Source: Hysterangium stoloniferum (lineage: Eukaryota > Basidiomycota > Agaricomycetes > Hysterangiales > Hysterangiaceae). From it: 64,000 nucleotides of DNA. The notes beneath the pieces were generated by a model that was given only the letters and a program-made list of their open reading frames with translations, searched no databases and was not told the DNA's origin. The stretch covers positions 496,001 to 560,000 of the forward strand of contig WHVD01000026.1 of the NCBI GenBank assembly GCA_015178975.1, read 5' to 3'. Below, piece by piece: positions 5,972-49,581 of the stretch; the stretch's first letter is position 1, and each line of letters opens with the position of its first letter. A program made the position numbers and the translations under genes.

Positions 5972-6958
5972 CGTTACGACCGTGTCGTAACCCATGTTGC
6001 AACCCGACGGTCCCCGAGAATACTACAATCTATCGATGTTCCAAGTTATTGATCAAGTCATTATTTCAGCAACCTTCGGAACACCGACACTGACGTATAC
6101 CTTCACGGTGATCAAACCCCATTTACGCCCCTGTCAAAATATACTCGTACCATCTGGTTATGCTTTGATACATCCCTTTTCATTATGATGATCCACTTTA
6201 CTCTATGTTTCACATATGCCCATATATACTTGTAGCCCGTGGACTATTCCCTTTTCTTGTAATCCCGCTCTCGGCTAAATCTCGGCTTCCGATCTTATCG
6301 TAACTTTCCAGTTTCTAGTCAAGTCTATTTGTCAAATAGTGTTTCCACTCTTCCCTCAGTTAGTAGTTTCTAGACGCTGATAACTCGTATATAAACCCGC
6401 TGTAATGTAACTACTAGACAATCAGAATATCGACTTAGATCAACTTAGATACCCTCTAATTTCCGACTCCATTATCTATCCATGACCACCACATTCCGAC
6501 TCCGTCCAATTTTCAATTCAACCTACATTTACGACTTCAACCTCTAATCTCCAACTCTTAGTCTCCGACTATCTCAGTCTCCGACTTTCTCAGTCTCCGA
6601 CTCTCTCAGTCTCTGACTCTCTCAGTCTCCGACTCTCTCAGTCTCCGACTCTCTCAGTCTCCGACTCTCTCAGTCTCCGACTCTCTCAGTCTCCGACTCT
6701 CTCAGTCTCCGACTCTCAGTTTCCGACTCTCAGTTTCCGACTCTCAGTTTCCGACCCCTCAGCCCAACCCTCGACTTGTCCTTCGGTTTCCGATCAGTGG
6801 TTTACCGAGAGGTTTACTTGACAGGACTAGTTTTCGCCCGCTCAAAATTTAAGGACACCCGATGGTAACTTGTGAGGGTGCAGCACATAAGCTGAAGCCA
6901 AGTCCTTCCATTCGGTCCCTGTCGGCCAGCCGACATCCGTCAGTTTCTGCTCTTAACA
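5972..6958 (+). mobile_element. Solo LTR, family E, inside Gypsy A RT
   Basis: This 987 bp LTR matches the copy at 48,571 from its GTTACGACCGTGTCGTAAC start to its CTCTTAACA end. Five-base flanks CCTTT and CCGTT (one mismatch) look like a worn TSD, and taking the LTR out restores the RT reading frame. The first base is C instead of T. It is longer than its siblings because of an expanded 14-bp minisatellite. The LTR start has a 7-bp inverted repeat (TTACGAC..GTCGTAA). Confidence 0.88.
6566..6755 (+). repeat. Minisatellite, 14-bp unit CTCTCAGTCTCCGA
   Basis: About eleven tandem copies of a 14-bp unit, grading into shorter CTCAGTTTCCGA units at the right end. It lies inside LTR-E. The LTR-E copy at 49,160 has only about four units, so the array length varies between insertions. 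Confidence 0.85.
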
Positions 6959-13819: not shown

Positions 13820-14571
13820 AAGGCAGAGGAGGGTCTGAGTGATAGGCTTGTGAGAAGACCTGGGGGTGGATCTCTGATGATGTGGGGCTGTATGCTGTGG
13901 GAGGGAGTTGGGTATGCATGCAAGATTGATGGGAAGATAGATGGATGGAGAGTTATACACCAATATTCTGCAGGATGAACTCCAGGAAAGCCTTGCCTTC
14001 TATGGCAAGAATCCCTCCACTATCATCTTCCAGCAGGATAATGATCCTAAGTACAAGTCCAAGAAAGCTACAACTTGGTTTGAAGATCATGGATATAAGG
14101 TCCTTCCTTGGCCAGCACAGTCCCCTGATCTCAATCCTATTGAACATCTTTGGGATCATCTGAAAACGAAGCTGGGAGAGTATGAGAGGGCCTCAGGAGG
14201 GATATTGGAGCTGGGGGAGAGGGTACAAGTAGAGTGGGATAAAATATTGCCAGAGGTGTACCAGAATGTGATTGAACGTATGCCTAGGAGGGTTGCAGCA
14301 GTGGTAAAGGCTAAAGGAGGTCAGTACTAGAATGCATAGCTTTATATTTATAAAATGAGAGCAAAAAAGGGTTGCAATAATACTCCTGTACAAAGTATTT
14401 AATATCTCAACAATGAGTGAATATTTTTGAACAAACTTGCTTATCATGTTAAGGTTCAGAAACAGGGCTTTCTAACTTATATTTCTTCCTAATTCTAGCT
14501 ATTTTATGTCTGGAGTTATAAGCATTTGAGTTAGAATTTACTGAACACTGCAACCCTTTTTTTGCTTACTG
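13820..14571 (+). mobile_element. Tc1/mariner element 2, 5' end lost
   Basis: The right arm (about 14,356-14,571) has an inner GAGCAAAAAAGGGTTGCA and an outer inverted copy ending GCTTACTG, followed by TA. The left half is missing where LTR-B abuts. Confidence 0.8.
13822..14330 (+). pseudogene. Tc1-family transposase, C-terminal half
   Basis: The frame opens with GGGSLMMWGCMLWEGVGYACK. It shifts near 13,945 and then runs intact for 130 residues from 13,941. IFQQDNDPKYKSKK holds the second catalytic Asp, and SPDLNPIEHLWDHLK, 34 residues on, keeps the catalytic Glu. It is closely related to element 1 but independent of it. The DNA-binding half is absent. Confidence 0.85.
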
Positions 14572-15421: not shown

Positions 15422-17022
15422 CAGTGACTCAAAAAACCCTTCCAATGTTTGGTACTTCAGATGTATATCCTTGATAGCTCAGAGGAGAAAATTGCAAAAA
15501 TCTCGAAAGTATTTGTGAATATGCTCTATCATATCTAGATTGTTGAAATACAATGCCATTACATAAGTTCCAAATATGGAAATACTACAAATATATATAT
15601 ACAGGAGACTCATTGGAAGGGTTTTTTGGCCAACAACTCTGACCCACAAAACTACTAATATTCAGTACTTAGTATGGCTATCCTTTGCCTTCAACACACC
15701 TGCAACCCTTCTAGGCATACTCTCAATCAAATTCTGACACACCTCTACATCAATCTTGTTCCACTCCTCCTCTACCCTCTCCCACAACTTCAATATCCCT
15801 TATCCCCCTCTTTTTATGATTCCACAAGTATTCAATGGGGTTGAGGTCTGGAAACTGTGCTAGCCATGGGAGGACATTAAAATCATTATCTTGAAACCAA
15901 GTCTGGGCCTTCTTGCAGGTGTGTTCAGGGTCATGATCTTGCTGAAAGATGACATTACCCACATATTTTCCATAATAGTTGAGGCTGGCTTGAAGGTTCT
16001 CCTCCATAATCTTGAGAGAAAGGTACCCATCCATTCTCTCATCTATCTTGAAAGAATACCCAGGTCCTTCCACAGCATGTAGCCCCATAATATCACAAAT
16101 CCTTCTCCAAACATCACAAAAAGTTCCTTCCAATGAGTCTCCTATATATAAATATTTGTAGTATTTCCATATTTGGAGCTTATGTAATGGCACTGTATTT
16201 CCATAATATAGATATGATAGAGCATATTCAAAAATATCTCTGATATTGTTGCATTTTTATTCTCTGAGTTATCAGGGATGTAAATCTGAAGTACCAAACA
16301 GGGGAAGGGTTATTGAGGCACCCCCAACCATATTGAGACTATTGCACACAGTTGGGGTACAGATGGACTGGTTAGTGACATTATTAAGAGCTTTGGCCAC
16401 ATCAAAAGCAGTGTCAGCCTTCCCAGAGCTGATGAGATGCTGTGCATAGTGAATATTGGTAGTGGAAAGCTTGGAGGGGTGACCACCAATGGACTTAGAG
16501 AGATGACAACAACGCTTGGAGTAAAGTCTAAAGACTGTGCCAATGCCATAACTAGTAGGAGCTAAAATGTGGCTAGCTGTATGGCCAGCATCAAGCAGTG
16601 AGAGGATATGATTCTGGCTGGCAAGAGACAAAGTGCATATTTTGGGAATTGGGACATTGCTAGTTGCTAAAGGCCATGTATTTATACTGCAGCACAATGT
16701 GGTCATGTGACATCAGGTGACATCATGTGATTTTGTTGATAGGACCCAGTTGGAGGTGAACAATCAACAAGGTCACATGACTATAAGCATTTATAGTCAT
16801 CAATGCTGCTGGCCAAAAAACCCTTCCAATGAGCCTCCTGTATATATATATATTTGTAGTATTTCCATATTTGGAGCTTATGTAATAAAATTGTATTTCC
16901 ACAATCTATATATGATAGAGCACGCTCACAAATAGTTTTGATATTTCTGCATTTTTATCCTCTGAGCTATCAAGGATATACATCTGAAGTACCAAACATT
17001 GGAAGGGTTTTTTGAGTCACTG
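15422..17022 (-). mobile_element. Tc1/mariner element 3 with an extra arm copy inside
   Basis: A 1,601 bp element flanked by TA (15420-15421, 17023-17024), with ends CAGTGACTCAAAAAACCC and its inverse. As in elements 1 and 4, each arm is bounded by inverted copies of the terminal motif CCCTTCCAATG. A third arm-like copy (about 16,126-16,315) sits in the middle of the transposase gene. Confidence 0.88.
15663..16706 (-). pseudogene. Tc1-family transposase, middle replaced
   Basis: The N-terminal DNA-binding part (16,272-16,706; LSLLDAGHTASHILAPTSYG) and the C-terminal catalytic part (about 15,663-16,126; FQQDHDPEHT and, 34 residues on, Glu in FPDLNPIEYLW) belong to one gene. The first catalytic Asp region is missing, replaced by about 190 bp matching the element's own right arm. 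No functional product is possible. Confidence 0.82.
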
Positions 17023-24463: not shown

Positions 24464-25319
24464 TGTTAAGTGCCATGTCGGGAACTTATTCCGGAACTAT
24501 TGGAAAGTCACTGGGAAGTCGGAAACTGTCAGATAGGGTCAGGACATCAGCTTCAGCTTATGTGCTGCACCTCTACCCAAATGCTTAATGTCCTTAATTT
24601 CAGAAGTAAAGCTTACGACAGAAGATATGGATATTCAGAGTTCCAAAGAGTTCCGAATATCTGTTGAAACAGTTGAATAACACTTTGCAGAACACCCCTG
24701 TGAGTGTGATTGGAAAGTAAACACTTAGTATATTCAACTGTAAAGACATACCTGTGAGTGTGATTGGAAAGTAAACACTAAGGAGACTTTCCCACACCCA
24801 CAGTGGACTATACTACTAGGTGCTTATCTAAGCACCTATACAGGAGGTACCAACCTAAGGTAACTCACTCAATACTGCACCTACAGTGCTGGGAAAAATA
24901 CTACAAATATCAGAAGAATATGGAGATCATAATAGACTATGTTAGAGCTGTAGTATCATACTCTAACAATATCGAGCGTACAGAAAGACGGGAGGAGGAA
25001 TAAGAAACTAAGTCGATATCAGATCTAAGGTAAAGTACAAATTCGCGGAAACTAATATAAGTCTACTCATTATTGTACTACAAACTAAGACCATAATAAG
25101 ACGGAAACGGAAGTGTTCTTAAAACGGACATACAATAAGACATATTAGGGAGACAATATTCTGAAACGGGAATACAACAAACAAACGAGTGAATACTTGT
25201 CAATGGACAAATTACCAAATGCAGAACAAGGGAAGAATGTGGATGATACAGTAACTATGATGTTCCATAGTCGGAGATCGGAAGTCGGATATTGAAACAT
25301 CTGGGAACAGGTCGTAACA
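24464..25319 (-). mobile_element. Gypsy B 3' LTR (LTR-B, 856 bp)
   Basis: Runs TGTTAAGTGCCATGTC to GGTCGTAACA. On the coding strand it is preceded by a polypurine tract (AACAGGGGGGTAC) at 25,320-25,332, as expected for plus-strand priming. The 5' LTR lacks about 326 bp found here. Confidence 0.92.
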
Positions 25320-25447
25320 GTACCCCCCTGTTAGGCCGAAATCCCATAGAGGCGATTAGGTACTGAGTGATTGAAGTGACAGTTGATTATTATGTGTGGT
25401 GAAATTTATGCAATTCTGGAGGTGAGAGTTTCGGCTGATGTTCTGAG

Positions 25448-25455
25448 TATAAAAA
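25448..25455 (+). promoter_or_regulatory. TATA box of the antisense gene in Gypsy B
   Basis: TATAAAAA ends 48 bp before the ATG at 25504, on the strand opposite to pol. Confidence 0.55.
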
Positions 25456-25503
25456 CCTCCAAATATTCGAATTAATGTTTTTGTTTCTTTATCCACAACT
25501 TGT

Positions 25504-26629
25504 ATGTTGATTCATCGGCCTCTGTTCATCACTACCCTGGAAGATTCAGATACCAAAATTGCCGTTCTACAAAAAATGTCGAAGGTTGCAGAACTTCAAC
25601 AAAGGATGGAGGAGTTGAAGTGATGACAAGAGGAGGAGGAGAAGGCGTTGATGCAGGAGTTGAACGATGGGGAAGAGGCGGAAAAACGGGAGTTGGAGCA
25701 GGCGAAGGCGGAGAAGGAAGCGTGGATCTGGAAAATGGCAGAGGTTCAGAAACAGAAGGAAGAGGTGGAAAAGTTACAGCAGGAGTCAGAGGCGGCGAAG
25801 AAACGTGAGGAGATAAGGGAAGGAAAGGTAAGTGCCGTCCATAATTTTCCGTGGTTCCAACTGATAACTATTGGATACAGCGAAAAGCCGTGTCAGTGGA
25901 GGTAGAGGGAGAAGCTGGACCTTCGAGTCCTAAAGTAAGTGCATCTACAAGAGGCCGGTAATTGACTAACTTCCGAAACAGAAGCCAAAGGTCAAGGCTC
26001 CGGAACGGATGGAAGTGGTCCATGAAAATCCGTGTTATCCATGTTCCATATGGAGTATGACGTGTTGGAAACAGAAGGTAAAATGGGGCGGAACTTGCTA
26101 TCCCTGCGCGGTTCTTAAACTTCCGTGCACTCTCGCCTCAAAAAGGGTTCCGAAAGGTGAGAAGCCTCAGAGGACTAACAACGTGGAAGGTTCGGGAGCG
26201 GCCAAAACTGTGGAAACTGAGGTACCGCAAACGGATAGTATGGGCATGGAGCTCCTCAAGGACACCATTGATGCGTTAGTCTTTATCGGGACGGAAGTTA
26301 TGAAAATGCAGGATACTCTAGATCGCCATAATGAGATCCAGGAAAAAGGTTTCCGTTGATTGGTCTGAAATTTCCGGAGACAAAATGAATTCCTGGAGAA
26401 GGTAATGGTTAACATCGGTATTATCGCAGTTTCCAAAAGATTTTCCGATAAGGCAAGGGAACAGCCTAACGATCTGTTGGCAGAATGTGTCAAAAAGAGA
26501 TGGGAGTCAGGGAAAGGGCTGGAAAGTGAAGATGAACAGGTACAGGATATGGTGGGGAGTGCGGAGATTGCGGATGATATGGGAGTGGAAATGGAAGGAG
26601 GATTTGGGGTGTCAGAGACTTTAAAATAG
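25504..26629 (+). pseudogene. Antisense intron-containing gene in Gypsy B: coiled coil plus Zn2Cys6-like cluster
   Basis: The gene reads opposite to gag-pol, between the chromodomain stop and the 3' LTR. Exons 25504-25827, 25881-25934 and 25982-26629 join in phase 0 through two introns of about 50 bp with GTAAGT and ACAG ends, giving 341 codons. Residues 25-108 are Glu/Lys/Gln-rich and look like a coiled coil. Residues 144-175 contain C-x2-C-x6-C-x10-C-x2-C-x6-C (CYPCSIWSMTC, CYPCAVLKLPC), which fits the Gal4-type Zn2Cys6 spacing, although basic residues are few. The frame has four TGA stops (25621-25626 twice, 26357, 26366), each in a place where CGA would restore Arg, so this copy is decayed. 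A DNA-binding or antisense regulatory role is inference. Confidence 0.7.
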
Positions 26630-26726
26630 ATGAAAATAAATTTTGACTTGTATGATTTCAAAAATGAGTGTGATATCGGAAATAGCGGAAGTGGCAGAAA
26701 CTGAACAGAAAGAAAAAATGGAAAAG

Positions 26727-27050
26727 TCAGAGTGATGATAAAGGTCTGGGTTTGCTTGGATAAGCCGTGTGGAAATCAGTAACAATTTCCATAGCGTGTC
26801 CGAGTTCCGTGGCCAATATCCATGAAGTTTCCTCGTCGGTACCTTCATAACCTGCCCATTTGACTAAATAGAGCAATTTACAAGTACATTGGCGATTGTC
26901 GATTTTAAAATCCAAAATTTCGGAAACTTCAAATTCGGGTTCTCCGTCAATGATGACCAGAGGGGACGGAGGTTGAATACGTTCCGGGATTTTGTTAGGA
27001 ACACAGGGTTCTAACATGGAAACGTGGAAAACAGGATGAACTGCTCGCAT
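26727..27050 (-). pseudogene. Gypsy B integrase C-terminus and chromodomain
   Basis: Encodes HPVFHVSMLEP, then an FEVSEILDFKI start and YLVKWAGYEGTDEETSW chromodomain core, ending PSKPRPLSSL as in Gypsy A. It is in a different frame from the integrase core at 27,170-27,763, with decayed sequence between. Confidence 0.85.
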
Positions 27051-27169: not shown

Positions 27170-30100
27170 TTACAAAAACCTGATCACCGATTTTAAAATT
27201 AGGAGGCAGGATCCTGTTTTTGTCCATGGAACGTTGATAATATTCCTGTGCGGAAGAAATAGCTTTCCGAAGTTCTTGATGTAATCTCGTTCGGGATGTA
27301 CAGTGAGATTCGGATTATAGCCTTTGTTGGTGAAGAAAGGAGATACGCCAGTAGTTGCATTCGGAGAGTTATTGTAGGCGAATTCCGCGATCGGGAGAAG
27401 GGATTTCCAGTTGTCCTGTTGATAATTGCAATAGATGTGGAGGTATTGTTCCAATGTTTGATTTACACGTTCCATTTGTCCATCACCTTCCAGGTGATAT
27501 CCCGAGGTGAAGTGTAGTTTCATGTCGAGGGCTTTTCCGAGAGCCTGGAAGAAATGGGAGACGAACTTGGAGCCTCGATCGGAAGTTACATAAGACGGAA
27601 CTCCGTGTTTGGAAAATACGTGAATAATGAAAAGTTCTGCTAATTGTAAGGACGGGATTGTATCATGAGTGGGTATGAAAATGCCTTGTTTCAAGAATCG
27701 ATTCACAACAACTAGAATGGATGTAAAGCCTTCGGAAGTCGGGAGTTGTTCAATAAAATCCATGGAAATTGAGTTCCAGGGTTTTTCTTCTGTATCAGGA
27801 GTTGCTTGAGAAGGCCGTACGGCCTATGGCTCTGGGTTTTGGAGCGTAAGCAGGTGGTGCATGACTTACAGAACTGGGTTACAAAATCTCAGAGGTTGGG
27901 CCAAGTGTATTCTCTACGGATTAAACCAAGAGTATTGTTAATGCCGTAATGTCCAGAGATTGGATGATCGTGTTTATACTGAAGTACGCAGAGTCAGAGA
28001 TTGTTGGAATCTGGAACGTAGATACGTCCATCGAGATGGATAAAACCTTGAGTGTCTTGTGACCATTGGGGTTGGTCCGGATTGTCAGGAACTTCTAGGT
28101 GTGGCTTGAGAGCTGGATCGGAAGTGAGTGTGGAAAGGATATCTTGATGTAATTGCTCAATGTCCATAATCATGATGCTATGCATAATTGGATAGTAGAG
28201 GGAAGTTGCTCGGATAGATGCAGAAAGTTGTTGCATTGTAAAAACCAGTTTTAAGTTATGTGGATTAACAACAGCATAGTTAATTTCCCCCTCTTTAGGA
28301 TAGATGTCCCATTGTCAAGTCATGGCATCTGGTTTTCCACCAAGACGTCCGGGTCGGAAACAGATAATCGTGTTGAAAGCAGAAAGGAATTCAGACCAGC
28401 GGGCCTGCCAGCAGGTTAAAAGTTTAGTGGTGGAAAAATATTTGAGGTTTTTGTGATCGGTAACAACGTCAACGGGAGTTGCAGAACCTTCGAGATAATG
28501 GCACCAATGCTTGAAAGCTTCAAAAATTGCCAAAAGTTCCTTATCATGAACATCGTAGTTGAGTTCAGACACTTTCAGTGTCCGAGGAAGGAATGTGACC
28601 AGATGAATTTCACCGTCAGAATCTTGAATGGAAAGACTCGCAGCAATTGCATAATCGGAAGCATCGGTTTCCACAATAATCGGAACATCAGGTTTCCAAT
28701 GGGAAAGAATCAGGGCAGAAGTGAAAGCATTTTTTAAAGTCTGGAAATCAAAGCGGCATTTGTCGTCAAAGACCCATGGTTGAGTTTTACAGGTAAGACG
28801 AGTGAGCGGTACTGTAATATCCGAGTAGTTCCGAATAAAATGACGGTAAAAGTTGGTGAAACCTAAAAATGACTGAATATCCTTGACTTTCCGTGGTTCG
28901 GGCCAATCACGGACAACTTGAACCTTGGTTTCATCCATACGGAGACCATCAGGTCCGATAATGAAACCTAAGTATTCAATAGAATCCATGTCAAAGTAGC
29001 ATTTTTTACCGTAGGCGAAAAGACCGTTTTTACAGAGTCTTCAGAAGACTTCATGGACCTGTTCATCGTGGAGAGCGGGATCCTTGGAAAATACCAAAAT
29101 GTCGTCCAAATAGACTATGACACATACGTTAAGCATGTTGGAAAATATATCATTAACAAAACATTGAAAAGCGGAAGGGGCGTTGGTAAGGCCAAACGGC
29201 ATAACCAACCATTCAAAGGATCCATAGCGAGTTCGAAAAGCAGTTTTCCATTCATCGCCCTCGGCAATTCGGACCAAATGATAGGTGTGCTTGAGGTCTA
29301 TTTTGGTGTAGATCTGAGCTTTCTGTGGGGCATTGAGTAAATCAGTAACGAGTGGAAGTGGATACTTATCTTTCCGTGTGATAGAATTTAATCCTCTGAA
29401 ATCGACACAGAGTCAAAGGGAGCCATCCTTCTTTCGGATGAAAAGGACGGGTGCTCCATACGGAGACTTTGAGGGACGGATAAAACCTATCAACAGATGT
29501 TCATCCAGGAACTCCCGAATAGAAAGTTCTGATTGGGATAATGGGTAAATAGGTCCTAACGGAGGGTTTGAACCGGGCTCAATATCAATTTTTAAGTTGT
29601 AGGGCCTATGTGGTGCAAGCCTGTCAGCTTTTTGCTTACTGAAAATGTCCGCGAAATCATGGTATTTTTCGGGAACTCCTTCCAGGTCGGCTTTTAGCTC
29701 GGATAATTCTGGAGTCGCAAAATGTCCAGATGCTTCATCAACTTTTAAGCTGATCGAAAAACACTGCAAACCATCCAGTTTACTCACCCTAACAAATGCC
29801 GAAGCATTGATGAGAGAGATTTTTGGAGGCACGGAGGTTTCGGTAGAAGCCGGAGGTGCCGTAGATGCCGAAAAGGTGTTGGCCGGAAGAGACGCTGCAA
29901 GGGGAACCAAAGTGTCGGGAATTCAGAAATTAATACTGCCCAATACCCAGTCAATCAATGGGTTATATCGGGTGAGCCAGTTGTATCCAAGAACTACCGA
30001 ACAGCTAGAGTCCAACTGTGTTACGAAAAAAGTAACTGTCTGGGATGTTCCACAAGGGAACCGGATAGACATGTTGCAGGCTTGGGTAATTGCCATATTG

Positions 30101-30230
30101 CTAGTGCTGTCAAACAGACACAAGGAAATTGCGGGAACAGAATGGAGTTTCAGATTATGTTTCGAGGCAAAGGTGGTATCTACAAAACAGTGTGTGGAGC
30201 CGGAATCTATCAGAGCTCGGAACACTAAAT
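27170..30230 (-). pseudogene. Gypsy B protease, RT, RNase H and integrase
   Basis: Protease: [13 protein letters not shown] at about 30,210 and [46 protein letters not shown], the [10 protein letters not shown] catalytic box and SFLGFTNFYRHFI. RNase H: ETDASDYA, YDVHDKELLAIFEA and VVTDHKNL, so Asp, Glu and Asp are kept. Integrase: HDHPISGHYG, CKSCTTC, MDFIEQLP and TSDRGSKFVS, with catalytic Asp residues kept. One frame carries protease to integrase N-terminus, broken by TGA codons where Arg or Trp is expected; a frameshift lies near 27,790. Gypsy A shares about the same order and wording. Confidence 0.9.
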
Positions 30231-30369: not shown

Positions 30370-31332
30370 TCTTTTTTCAACTCCGTGGTGGGTTTTTCCT
30401 TAGACGTTGTAGTCATAGTGGAAGTTGTTGCCAGAAGACTTGCTAGTCAACACCTTGTTATTCTGAGAACATTCCATCGGGTTCTCTCAAGAGACCTCAG
30501 CTTTTCGTTCCCAATAATGGGCATCGGATGTTTGAGCTTTAATCCACATGAGTTGGAGAGTTTTTGGCTTCCCATCTTTGCAGATCTCGTCTTTAAGGTG
30601 TGACGGAAGTCCCATATAGAAATGGTGTCTGAGGGCGGAATCGTCCCATCCACATCGTGCGGTGAGGGTATTGAACTTGACGAGATAATCTGAAACTCAT
30701 TGATTATCCTTCATCTTGAGCGTCATTAATTCATTTTCCGCTTCACCGGATTGATCGTAAGGTCCGAAATTAGTTTCCAGTTCTTCCACAAAAGCGTCCC
30801 AGTTGTCGAGCCATACAGGTGTCTCATCAGATATTCCAGATAGTCCAGGTTCAAACCAATCTTGAGTGGTATCCTTGAGATAAGAGAGTGTGAAATTGAC
30901 TTTTCGACTGTCGGATTTAAATGCAGAGGGTCGATCACAGAAACTGAAACGGCATTGGAGAAGGAAATTCTTCAATTTTTTCGGATCCTTGCCGGTAAAT
31001 GGTTCGGGTTCTTTGACTCCGGTGCGGGATGATTCTTTACTATCCTCAGTGGATTTCAAGTAGTCAGCGAATTTCACAATGGAGTTGACAAACAACATTT
31101 CAGTCAGTTCGTCGGAAGATTTCTTTTTCGATGTCTCCAGCTGATCTTCTGCTTCGTTGTCGGAAGTGTGGGGAACATTGGTGTCCTTCATTACCTCAGT
31201 AACCTCCTCGGTAACTTCTTCGACTGAAGCTGATGTTGTCAGCTGAAAAGGGGTTTCAGGTTGAGTGGTGTAAAGTTGCAATGGGGATTGAAGTTGGGAT
31301 GGTCCTTCGGCAGCTTTGCGTTTGGGACCCAT
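30370..31332 (-). pseudogene. Gypsy B gag, zinc knuckle deleted
   Basis: Starts MGPKRKAAEG at 31332, followed by an acidic and Ser/Lys-rich segment and a capsid-like core (KEPEPFTGKDPKKLKNFLLQC, CDRPSAFKSDSRKVNF, WDAFVEELETNFG). TGA replaces an expected Arg after KMKDNQ at about 30,697 and again near 30,450. Compared with Gypsy A, the Asn-rich tract and CCHC zinc knuckle are absent, apparently a deletion of about 150 bp. Gag and protease share one frame, so a Gag-Pol fusion polyprotein is likely. Confidence 0.85.
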
Positions 31333-31366: not shown

Positions 31367-31896
31367 TGTTAAGTGCCGTGTCGGGAACTTATTCCGGAAC
31401 TATCGGAAAGTCACCAGGAAGTCGGAAACTGTCAGATAGGGTCAGGACGTCAGCTTCAGCTTATGTGCTGCACCTCTACGCATCGCTCAGAAGAATATGG
31501 AGATCATAATAGACTATGTTAGAGCTGTAGTATCATACTCTAACAATATCGAGCGTACAGAAAGACGGGAGGAGGAATAAGAAACTAAGTCGATATCAGA
31601 TCTCAGGTAAAGTACAAATTCGCGGAAACTAATATAAGTCTACTCGTTATTGTACTACAAACTAAGACCATAATAAGACGGAAACAGAAGTGTTCTTAAA
31701 ATGGAAATACAATAAGACATATTAGGGAGACAATATTCCAAAATGGGAATACAACAAACAAACGAGTGAATACTTGTCAACGGACAAATTACCAAATGCA
31801 GAACAAGGGAAGAATGCGGATGATACGGTAACTATGATGTTCCGTAGTTGGAGATTGGAAGTCGGATATTGAAACATCCAGGAATGGGTCATAACA
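31367..31896 (-). mobile_element. Gypsy B 5' LTR (LTR-B, 530 bp, internally deleted)
   Basis: Runs TGTTAAGTGCCGTGTC to GGTCATAACA and is followed by the right TSD ACCTC. It lacks the middle 326 bp of the left LTR; the solo copy at 12,269 has a similar gap. Confidence 0.92.
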
Positions 31897-48537: not shown

Positions 48538-49581
48538 TGTTAGATATTTTGGGAGTCTTAATGTATAAGGTGTTACGACCGTGTCGTAACCCATGTCGCA
48601 ACCCGATGGTCTCCGAGAATACTACAGTCTATCGATGTTCCAAGTTATTGATCAAGTCATCATTTCGGCAACCTTCGGAATACCGACACTGACATATACC
48701 TTCACGGCGATCAAACCTCGTTTACGCCCCTGTCAAAATATACTCTACCATCTGGTTATGCTTTGATACGTCCCCTTTCATTATGATGATCCGTTTTACT
48801 CTATGTTTCACATATGCCCATATATACCTGTAGCCCGTGGACTATTCCCTTTTCTCGTAATTCCGCTCTCGGCTAAATCTCGGCTTCCGATCTTATCGTA
48901 ACTTTCCGGTTCCTAGTCAAGCTTATTTGTCAATGCCGTTTTCCGCTCTTCCCTTAGTTAGTAGTTTCTAGACGCCGATAACCCATATATAAACCCGCTG
49001 TAATGTAACTACTAGACAATCAGAATATCAACTTAGAATATCAACTTAGATCGACTTAGATACCCTCTAATTTCCGACTCCATTATCTATTCACAACCAC
49101 CACATTCCGACTCCATCCGATTTACGATTCAACCTACATTTACGACTTCAACCTCTAATCTCCGACTCTCTCAGTCTCCGACTCTCTCAGTCTCCGACTC
49201 TCTCAGTCTCTGACTCTCTCAGCCTCCGACTCTTGGTCTCTGACCCCTCAACCCAACCCTCGACTTATCCTTCGGTTTCCGATCGGTAGTTTACCGAGAG
49301 GTTTACTTGACAGGACTAGTTTTCGCCCGCCCGAAATTTAAGGACACCTGACGGTAACTTGCGAGGGCGCAGCACATAAGCTGAAGCCAAGTCCTTCCGT
49401 TCGGTCCCTGTCGGCCAGCCGACATCCGTCAGTTTCTGCTCTTAACATAAGGGCAAAGCACATTATTGTACAATGCTCACTACATGATGTTTATATACCT
49501 AAATACCTAATTCAATCTCAGAATCAAACATCGGAGACAATACCGGAGTCTCGCAGCTTCTACAGCTCGCAGACTCCAACA
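48538..49581. mobile_element. Small solo LTR-F (162 bp) hosting LTR-E
   Basis: The outer pieces TGTTAGATATTTTGGGAG and GCAGACTCCAACA lie between AGCCC and AGTCC (one mismatch, worn TSD). Without LTR-E it is about 162 bp, Copia-like in size. Confidence 0.72.
48571..49447 (+). mobile_element. Solo LTR-E, 877 bp
   Basis: TGTTACGACCGTGTCGTAAC to CTGCTCTTAACA with a perfect TSD TAAGG (48566-48570, 49448-49452). This is the best reference copy of the family. Confidence 0.96.

Follow-up and report, generated by a model that had tools for sequence, protein, structure and literature searches.

A spliced antisense gene for a Zn2Cys6-like cysteine-cluster protein in chromodomain Ty3/Gypsy elements of Hysterangium stoloniferum

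Results

Our analysis of the window, the whole 64,000-nucleotide stretch of Hysterangium stoloniferum DNA under study, revealed a real antisense gene carried by a Ty3/Gypsy retrotransposon, and the genome carries hundreds of element copies with this gene. Its predicted protein of about 335-350 amino acids would consist of a coiled coil, a basic junction, a six-cysteine cluster, a long helix and an acidic tail, and substitution patterns among the copies point to purifying selection acting on that protein.

The host of the gene is a minus-strand chromodomain Ty3/Gypsy element between LTRs at 24910-25319 and 31487-31896, which align with 95% identity over 410 bp. The order of its domains is that of Ty3/Gypsy elements (gag, protease, reverse transcriptase, RNase H, integrase, chromodomain), and all of them but the integrase have a family above the Pfam cut-off, consistent with a chromovirus. 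Within pol, RVT_1 scored 89.6 bits (cut-off 29.6), PF17917 and PF08284 were also above cut-off, and PF00665 (integrase) was below it (E 7.8e-05). Since pol is split into several ORFs, the window copy is decayed. The features of the element and of the antisense gene are as follows.

24910..25319, minus strand: 3' LTR of the Gypsy element, 95% identical to 31487-31896
25272..25290, plus strand: CGG heptamer array in the LTR (CGGAGAT CGGAAGT CGGAT), a candidate binding array
25320..25333, minus strand: polypurine tract adjoining the 3' LTR, located by regular expression (LTR end and tract at the expected distance in 35/40 loci)
25448..25455, plus strand: antisense-gene TATA box (37/40 loci have exact GTATAAAAA, 506-558 bp ahead of the match to exon 3)
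25504..25827, plus strand: exon 1, a charged coiled-coil-like segment, decayed here with stops at 25621 and 25624
25828..25880, plus strand: intron 1, phase 0 (GT..AG in 30/30 near copies)
25881..25934, plus strand: exon 2, 18 codons, with basic runs at both junctions
25935..25981, plus strand: intron 2, phase 0 (GT..AG in 28/30 near copies)
25982..26629, plus strand: exon 3 with TAG stop, decayed here with stops at 26357 and 26366
26033..26128, plus strand: six-cysteine cluster C-x2-C-x6-C-x10-C-x2-C-x6-C (cysteines conserved in copies, spacing kept in P0003)
26240..26446, plus strand: long helix predicted downstream of the cluster, position approximate and mapped by alignment from the P0003 model
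26635..26640, plus strand: AATAAA after the stop codon (within 40 nt in 26/30 near copies)
26727..27050, minus strand: end of pol with chromodomain (PF00385, 26.2 bits, cut-off 25.1), convergent with the antisense gene
27170..30225, minus strand: pol with integrase, RNase H, reverse transcriptase (29041-29412) and protease, in several broken ORFs
30697..31332, minus strand: gag (PF16297 above cut-off, PF03732 below)
31487..31896, minus strand: 5' LTR, by alignment to 24910-25319

No target-site duplication was found at the alignment-defined LTR edges, where the outer 5-mers are AAATA and ACCTC, and the earlier view of the element as bounded by such a duplication was not borne out. The outer 58 bp of the window LTRs (24910-24967 and 31487-31544) are absent from the matching LTR of nearly all copies. 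About the same 58 bp recur in locus L012, at the end of an insert of about 307 bp in pol that is flanked by a 5-bp duplication, and the window LTR may therefore be chimeric. Beside the Gypsy elements, ORFs at 13941-14330 and 15750-16193 contain PDLNPIEHLWD-like motifs, which we take to be typical of Tc1/mariner transposases.

The antisense gene occupies the plus strand between the end of pol (26727) and the polypurine tract and LTR (25320/25319), with TATAAAAA 115 bp inside the polypurine tract, followed by the ATG at 25504. Its three exons comprise 108, 18 and 216 codons (the last including TAG) and are separated by introns of 53 and 47 nt, both in phase 0 and of the form GTAAGT...CAG. The cysteine codons of exon 3 start at 26033, 26042, 26063, 26096, 26105 and 26126 (spacing 2-6-10-2-6), and the basic runs at the exon-2 junctions form what is presumably a nuclear localisation signal-like pattern. 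Because pol of the other strand stops at 26727, both coding regions converge without overlap. This anatomy agrees with the preliminary description of the window in the position and orientation of the gene, its TATA box, its two phase-0 GT-AG introns, its long coiled coil and its cysteine spacing. Transcription from a promoter of its own is predicted from two signals, the conserved TATA box and AATAAA. Folding gave no sign of structured RNA in 25828-25981 of the sense strand (z 0.78).

The frame of the window copy is broken by four in-frame TGA stops, which the preliminary description had proposed to read as arginine. Among 30 near copies, the codon at 25621 is CGA in 19 and TGA in 9, that at 25624 CGA in 18 and TGA in 9, and that at 26366 CGA in 16 and TGA in 6, and at 26357 the other copies have TCG, TCA or TTG. 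An exon-3 protein search also revealed TAA and TAG stops in other copies. Recoding of TGA was rejected on both counts; because most fetched copies have CGA at the two adjacent sites 25621 and 25624, TGA in the window copy represents decay and not a sense codon.

Copies were sought in the whole assembly (111 Mb, 554 contigs). A DNA search with a 1.39-kb segment gave at least 41 matches at 83-100% identity (best 40 of 388 candidates scored), from which 30 near-copy loci were fetched and aligned in gene orientation; all 30 start with ATG, and two (L013 and L029) are open throughout. In the exon-3 protein search, the best 150 of 775 candidates scored were all matches, down to 72% identity, and among the matches listed at least 107 of the 150, by a count made by eye, had no stop within the matched region. 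One subfamily at 92-100% identity to its query had at least 24 members among the matches listed, 22 of them stop-free by eye. Ten divergent loci all start with ATG as well, three of them (L047, L050 and L051) being open throughout.

The resulting 40 loci of the window type (type B; 30 near and ten divergent) were chosen by the gene and not by pol. An LTR end and tract lie at the expected distance in 35 of them (all but L025, L048, L053, L054 and L055), the exact TATA string is present in 37 (all but L026, L028 and L031), and 37 have an antisense chromodomain no more than about 0.65 kb from the match to exon 3 (all but L023, L024 and L048). Homologues in this genome sit at the same place and in the same orientation in Gypsy elements, a point that the preliminary description had proposed to check, in 35-37 of 40 type-B loci and in 12 of 14 loci of a second clade.

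This second clade is that of Gypsy A, at about 1.6-13.7 kb of the window, for which the genome was searched with the end of its pol and the best 14 loci were taken. The gene is absent from the window's own Gypsy A (L057) and from its nearest match (L058), and to this extent the earlier statement that Gypsy A lacks it stands, but not for the clade: 12 of the 14 loci, chosen by pol alone, carry an antisense gene at the same place and in the same orientation. For L057 and L058, no LTR end or tract was found by regular expression in the 1.5 kb beyond pol, nor was a 3' LTR or polypurine tract of Gypsy A found in the window downstream of its pol, and its 3' end therefore seems missing. All 12 genes are accompanied by an LTR end and tract, and ten have an exact TATA string in front. 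Spliced models were possible for 11 loci, with GT..AG for intron 1 in 11/11 and for intron 2 in 10/11 (L067 has lost the 3' end of intron 2 together with the first part of exon 3), and in the twelfth, L060, both introns are visible by eye. Exon 2 has 19 codons in this type, and exon 3 of L066 contains CSGCNDRNTECNRKAGRGPGCYQCAHLKARC, with the spacing 2-6-9-2-6; the x9 spacing is kept in 9/11 models, L061 and L065 being frameshifted or decayed there. Four copies (L066, L067, L068 and L070) are stop-free, and L065 is without ATG at its assigned start. An exon-3 search with this type gave at least 150 matches at 80-100% identity (best 150 of 1381 candidates scored).

The two gene types are only distantly similar. 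Translated BLAST linked them weakly, with 22-36% identity in exon 3 (best E 1e-5) and, at a single locus, 56% across 18 residues of exon 2; hhalign matched them with a probability of 97.8 across the coiled coil, the exon-2 segment and the cluster, the charged coiled coil being the least telling part of this match and able to inflate its score. Between the two clades, pieces of gag and pol share 60-81% identity, and the antisense gene evolves faster than pol. Because a diverged version sits in 12 of the 14 Gypsy A-clade loci, the gene and both introns predate the split of the clades, contrary to the gain or loss between Gypsy A and the window element that had been proposed. The suggestion that antisense introns can persist through retrotransposition, on the other hand, agrees with the presence of both introns in two diverged clades; in the genomic RNA they are present as the reverse complement, which lets them pass through the RNA stage.

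Two minor features of the Gypsy-A type were noted. Intron 1 of L067 is extended to 72 nt by a run of about 30 T. More than 12 listed copies contain a 1304-aa open frame around the end of pol with near-identical scores, and several of these are only a few kb away from the end of a contig. The pattern suggests recent activity together with either subtelomeric placement or assembly breaks at repeats.

Conservation of the protein was evident at several levels. The six cysteines are kept in 179 of 180 cells across the 30 near copies, where the modal fraction of exon-3 residues averages 0.91, and in 58 of 60 cells across the ten divergent copies. Exon lengths are multiples of three in 23/30, 29/30 and 27/30 copies for exons 1, 2 and 3, and intron lengths vary (52, 53, 57 and 58 nt for the first; 47, 48 and 49 nt for the second). 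Since a loose Gal4-type regular expression also matches an unrelated place in the window near position 632, its one such match (none in 20 shuffles), the case rests on conservation and not on the motif alone.

Ka/Ks was calculated for ten type-B sequences chosen from the 40 (five open, five with one stop; 45 pairs). A first computation gave 0.15-0.30 in 45/45 pairs, and recomputation on 326 gap-free codons gave a median of 0.22 (0.16-0.28) in frame, compared with 1.26 (0.77-2.10) and 1.08 (0.51-1.49) in the shifted frames of the same strand; as Nei-Gojobori counts ignore the strong transition excess, these absolute values are rough, and the argument is therefore the contrast between frames. 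The reverse-strand frames gave 0.97, 0.30 (frame 2) and 1.42, the ratio of 0.30 being taken as the mirror of shared third positions. Variable columns among the 326 numbered 179 at third, 85 at first and 86 at second positions. The chromodomain piece of the same ten elements had a median of 0.22 (0.00-0.64), and the Gypsy-A type of the gene 0.39 (0.21-0.52; 21 pairs of 7 sequences chosen from 12). The linker after the cluster evolves fast, with Ka/Ks of at least 0.50 in 7/8 pairs examined.

The identity of the cluster was assessed by spacing and by profile. The pattern C-x2-C-x6-C-x5..12-C-x2-C-x6..8-C, which we take to be the cysteine spacing of PF00172, fits the window copy, P0003 (a homologue described below), the ten divergent copies (58/60 cysteines) and 9/11 Gypsy-A models (x9). 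The comparison with the PF00172 profile, which had been suggested earlier, stayed below the curated cut-off of 21 bits: P0001, P0003 at full length and the L013 piece gave no match, Gypsy-A type pieces scored 7.8, 10.8 and 14.8 bits, and among pieces of 51-53 aa 5/7 matched at E up to 10 (best 0.0079). Alignment by hhalign with zinc clusters of the same genome gave a probability of 46% with the six cysteines in register, a score reached by 5/60 shuffles that kept the cysteine columns and by 0/60 full shuffles, so the match to genuine zinc clusters would depend largely on cysteine spacing. For these reasons we describe the cluster as Zn2Cys6-like and not as a member of PF00172. The Gal4-type identity in the preliminary description holds for the spacing but not for the profile, and may be called suggestive. 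As in Zn2Cys6 domains, two C-x2-C-x6-C halves are joined by a linker of variable length (x9 or x10), but the cluster falls below the family cut-off, and its recognition-loop residues presumably differ from those of Gal4-type clusters, the basic residues that we take to be typical of that loop missing in the window type. Members of PF00172 bind two zinc ions and CGG-containing DNA, and zinc binding by the six cysteines would be expected from their arrangement. Elsewhere, several Zn_clus matches cluster in single ORFs (G000:C115:74483-75050 and G000:C56), unlike one-cluster transcription factors.

Across an alignment of seven chosen cluster pieces from three groups, five cysteines and G, Y, K and L residues are invariant, the sixth cysteine being lost in one decayed copy, L054. 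Structure models were of low confidence (mean pLDDT 49 and 48) and AlphaFold yielded nothing for the cluster itself; for P0003 it placed a helix at 96-168 after the cluster with moderate confidence (pLDDT 56-85 by ten-residue block). Homologues were not found by single-sequence search at E 0.001, and alignments then detected P0002 to P0005, the exon-3 profile matching four proteins at E up to 10 (1841 candidates scored in a database of 5.8 billion). Three of these (P0002, P0004 and P0005) come from Hysterangium stoloniferum (Agaricomycetes, Phallomycetidae) and are without the cluster part, P0005 being 80% identical over 61 residues to the divergent copy L052. The fourth, P0003, is of environmental origin, is 39% identical over 99%, and keeps all six cysteines with the spacing 2-6-10-2-6; its start looks like the read-through end of an intron preceding the start of exon 3. 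No relative of P0003 or A2 was found among viral contigs, PDB sequences gave no match for P0001, and for the Gypsy-A type PDB gave weak matches to talin and other helices (best E 0.037).

Zn2Cys6 proteins contact CGG triplets, and the LTRs of the elements hold a candidate array of such sites. Tandem heptamers of the form CGGARRT lie beside the LTR end, with three units in the window copy and more in L022, L051 and L056. In 9/37 LTRs (L009, L019, L022, L030, L047, L049, L050, L051 and L056), CGG occurs more often than in any of 200 dinucleotide shuffles, and enrichment in the others is weak or at expectation, perhaps due to CpG decay. At least one CGG pair 7 bp apart occurs in 17/37 LTRs and none in 20/37; the 37 LTRs are related to one another, and these counts are therefore not independent tests. 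In the window copy, about 160 bp separate the array from the TATA box of the antisense gene. Both LTRs have the array, in decayed form in the right one, so that a single array could act on the sense promoter as well as the antisense one. CGG and CCG also occur in the LTR ends of the Gypsy-A type, where inspection by eye showed no heptamer array. The pairing of array and cluster protein is a correlation, and the array may be no more than a repeat within the promoter. At 6517-6748 and 49114-49265 of the window there are tandem arrays containing units of TCCGACT, which is AGTCGGA of the LTR read on the opposite strand.

Discussion

We propose that this is an antisense accessory gene of a chromodomain Ty3/Gypsy lineage, older than the split of the two Gypsy clades compared in this genome, whose cluster protein, made from a spliced transcript, binds CGG arrays and tunes the LTR, a reading to which we give an even chance. 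Its anatomy, linkage, conservation and selection as a protein can be read from the sequences; transcription, splicing, zinc binding, nuclear localisation, dimerisation and CGG-array binding are steps that we infer. Transcription toward pol would start from a promoter of the gene's own, between the 3' LTR and the reading frame, and would be followed by two splicing events. The protein would enter the nucleus by means of its basic junction, dimerise through the coiled coil or the helix, and bind through its cluster to the arrays of CGG heptamers at the LTR's U3 end, where binding would tune sense LTR transcription, the antisense gene's own promoter, or silencing. The protein may thus act as a nuclear self-regulator of the LTR, with a working mode like that of HBZ, the antisense regulator of HTLV-1, which is made from spliced transcripts; homology is not implied. 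More tentatively, and with the balance leaning against it, a spliced zinc-cluster DNA-binding factor encoded by the element and matching CGG sites in its LTR might form a self-contained regulatory or anti-silencing circuit. That the antisense orientation of the gene relative to the replicating RNA is what alone permits introns in such a circuit is a similarly doubtful, though possible, extension.

LTR retrotransposons have long been seen to carry antisense accessory genes, whose function is not known (PMC7264820). According to the available parts of two papers, plant Gypsy elements carry antisense ORFs (aORF-3R) between pol and the 3' LTR, among them Grande gene23, RIRE2, Retand TRP28 and PvRetro13; the Grande product is nuclear and has its own promoter, and the Retand products are predicted to bind DNA and have tandem repeats nearby (PMC7264820; PMC11963269). 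The gene reported here likewise lies between pol and the 3' LTR opposite gag-pol (type-B loci and 12/14 of the Gypsy-A type), is found in most copies (12/14 pol-chosen Gypsy A-clade loci) and is conserved like the chromodomain. The plant genes are likened to it in position and orientation, by their available descriptions and not by sequence; from what these relate, it differs in its two spliceosomal introns, its six-cysteine cluster and its fungal chromodomain lineage. The gene brtn of Boty/BcGypsy1 in Botrytis cinerea, reportedly described by Zhao et al. in 2011, is also antisense between pol and 3' LTR of a fungal Gypsy element, and is likened by position only, within what the available text conveys. 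Boty of Botrytis is listed, in the parts of the sources available, among elements with an antisense gene (PMC7264820; PMC8365987). Of the HTLV antisense products treated in the accessible part of one paper, HBZ is a leucine-zipper factor, an example of an antisense product able to regulate an LTR, and the APH proteins of other HTLVs are nuclear, with LTR-driven transcription repressed (PMC3185765). The likeness is that in both cases the 3' end of an LTR element encodes an antisense product, function here being suggested by analogy only; as far as that account goes, HBZ is a bZIP protein with its promoter in the 3' LTR, whereas here a cysteine cluster is found and the promoter would lie next to the LTR, without homology between them.

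Among the papers listed by searches of the open-licence literature, none was seen to describe a spliced antisense gene with a cysteine cluster in a Gypsy element of a basidiomycete, and this form of antisense accessory gene looks new. The family is unusually testable, with hundreds of copies, some of them open, and two deeply diverged types that share the same introns, and it also offers a likely metal-binding domain with a candidate target array in the LTR. It provides a clean case of an RNA-replicating element that retains spliceosomal introns. If the family is widespread, some fungal cysteine-cluster gene models could be element genes.

The cluster protein might instead be an anti-silencing factor that preserves its own LTR in an unmethylated or open state by binding the tandem CGG heptamers, for which the VANC proteins of plant VANDAL elements are a model. 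An element-encoded protein with the look of a nucleic-acid binder, next to a short tandem LTR array, would fit this role, and CpG transitions between the window copy and L029 (41/110), L013 (39/78) and L011 (40/79) would be consistent with methylation as the threat. However, the array lies inside the LTR, where plain promoter control explains it equally, and we regard anti-silencing as rather unlikely.

A helper in the replication cycle, acting in nuclear import of the integration complex or as an RNA export factor or nucleic-acid chaperone, with the cluster as a zinc knuckle or protein contact, seems quite unlikely. The basic junctions, coiled coil and cysteine cluster would fit such a helper too, but a separate antisense promoter would decouple the protein from particle production, and the six-cysteine spacing is, we presume, closer to Gal4-type clusters than to CCHC knuckles. 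An additional protein of the C. elegans element Cer1 does act in RNA export, according to the available part of the source (PMC10309623).

Retrotransposon antisense transcripts can feed silencing, as the accessible text of one paper describes (PMC7264820), and the functional product could in principle be the antisense RNA itself (double-stranded RNA or siRNA), the frame being incidental. This is very improbable given a Ka/Ks of 0.22 in one frame against about 1.1-1.3 in two others of the same strand, exon lengths in threes (23, 29 and 27 of 30) against varying intron lengths, and a cysteine pattern kept in P0003 at 39% identity.

Finally, a host transcription-factor gene or another mobile element, inserted once and carried passively, is extremely improbable on the surroundings of the 40 type-B loci: two introns and a TATA box look host-like, and L023 and L024 are without pol beside the gene within the fetched flank, but purifying selection is apparent, and an independent insertion of a host gene is disfavoured by the polypurine tract outside the gene and by the same site being occupied in two diverged clades.
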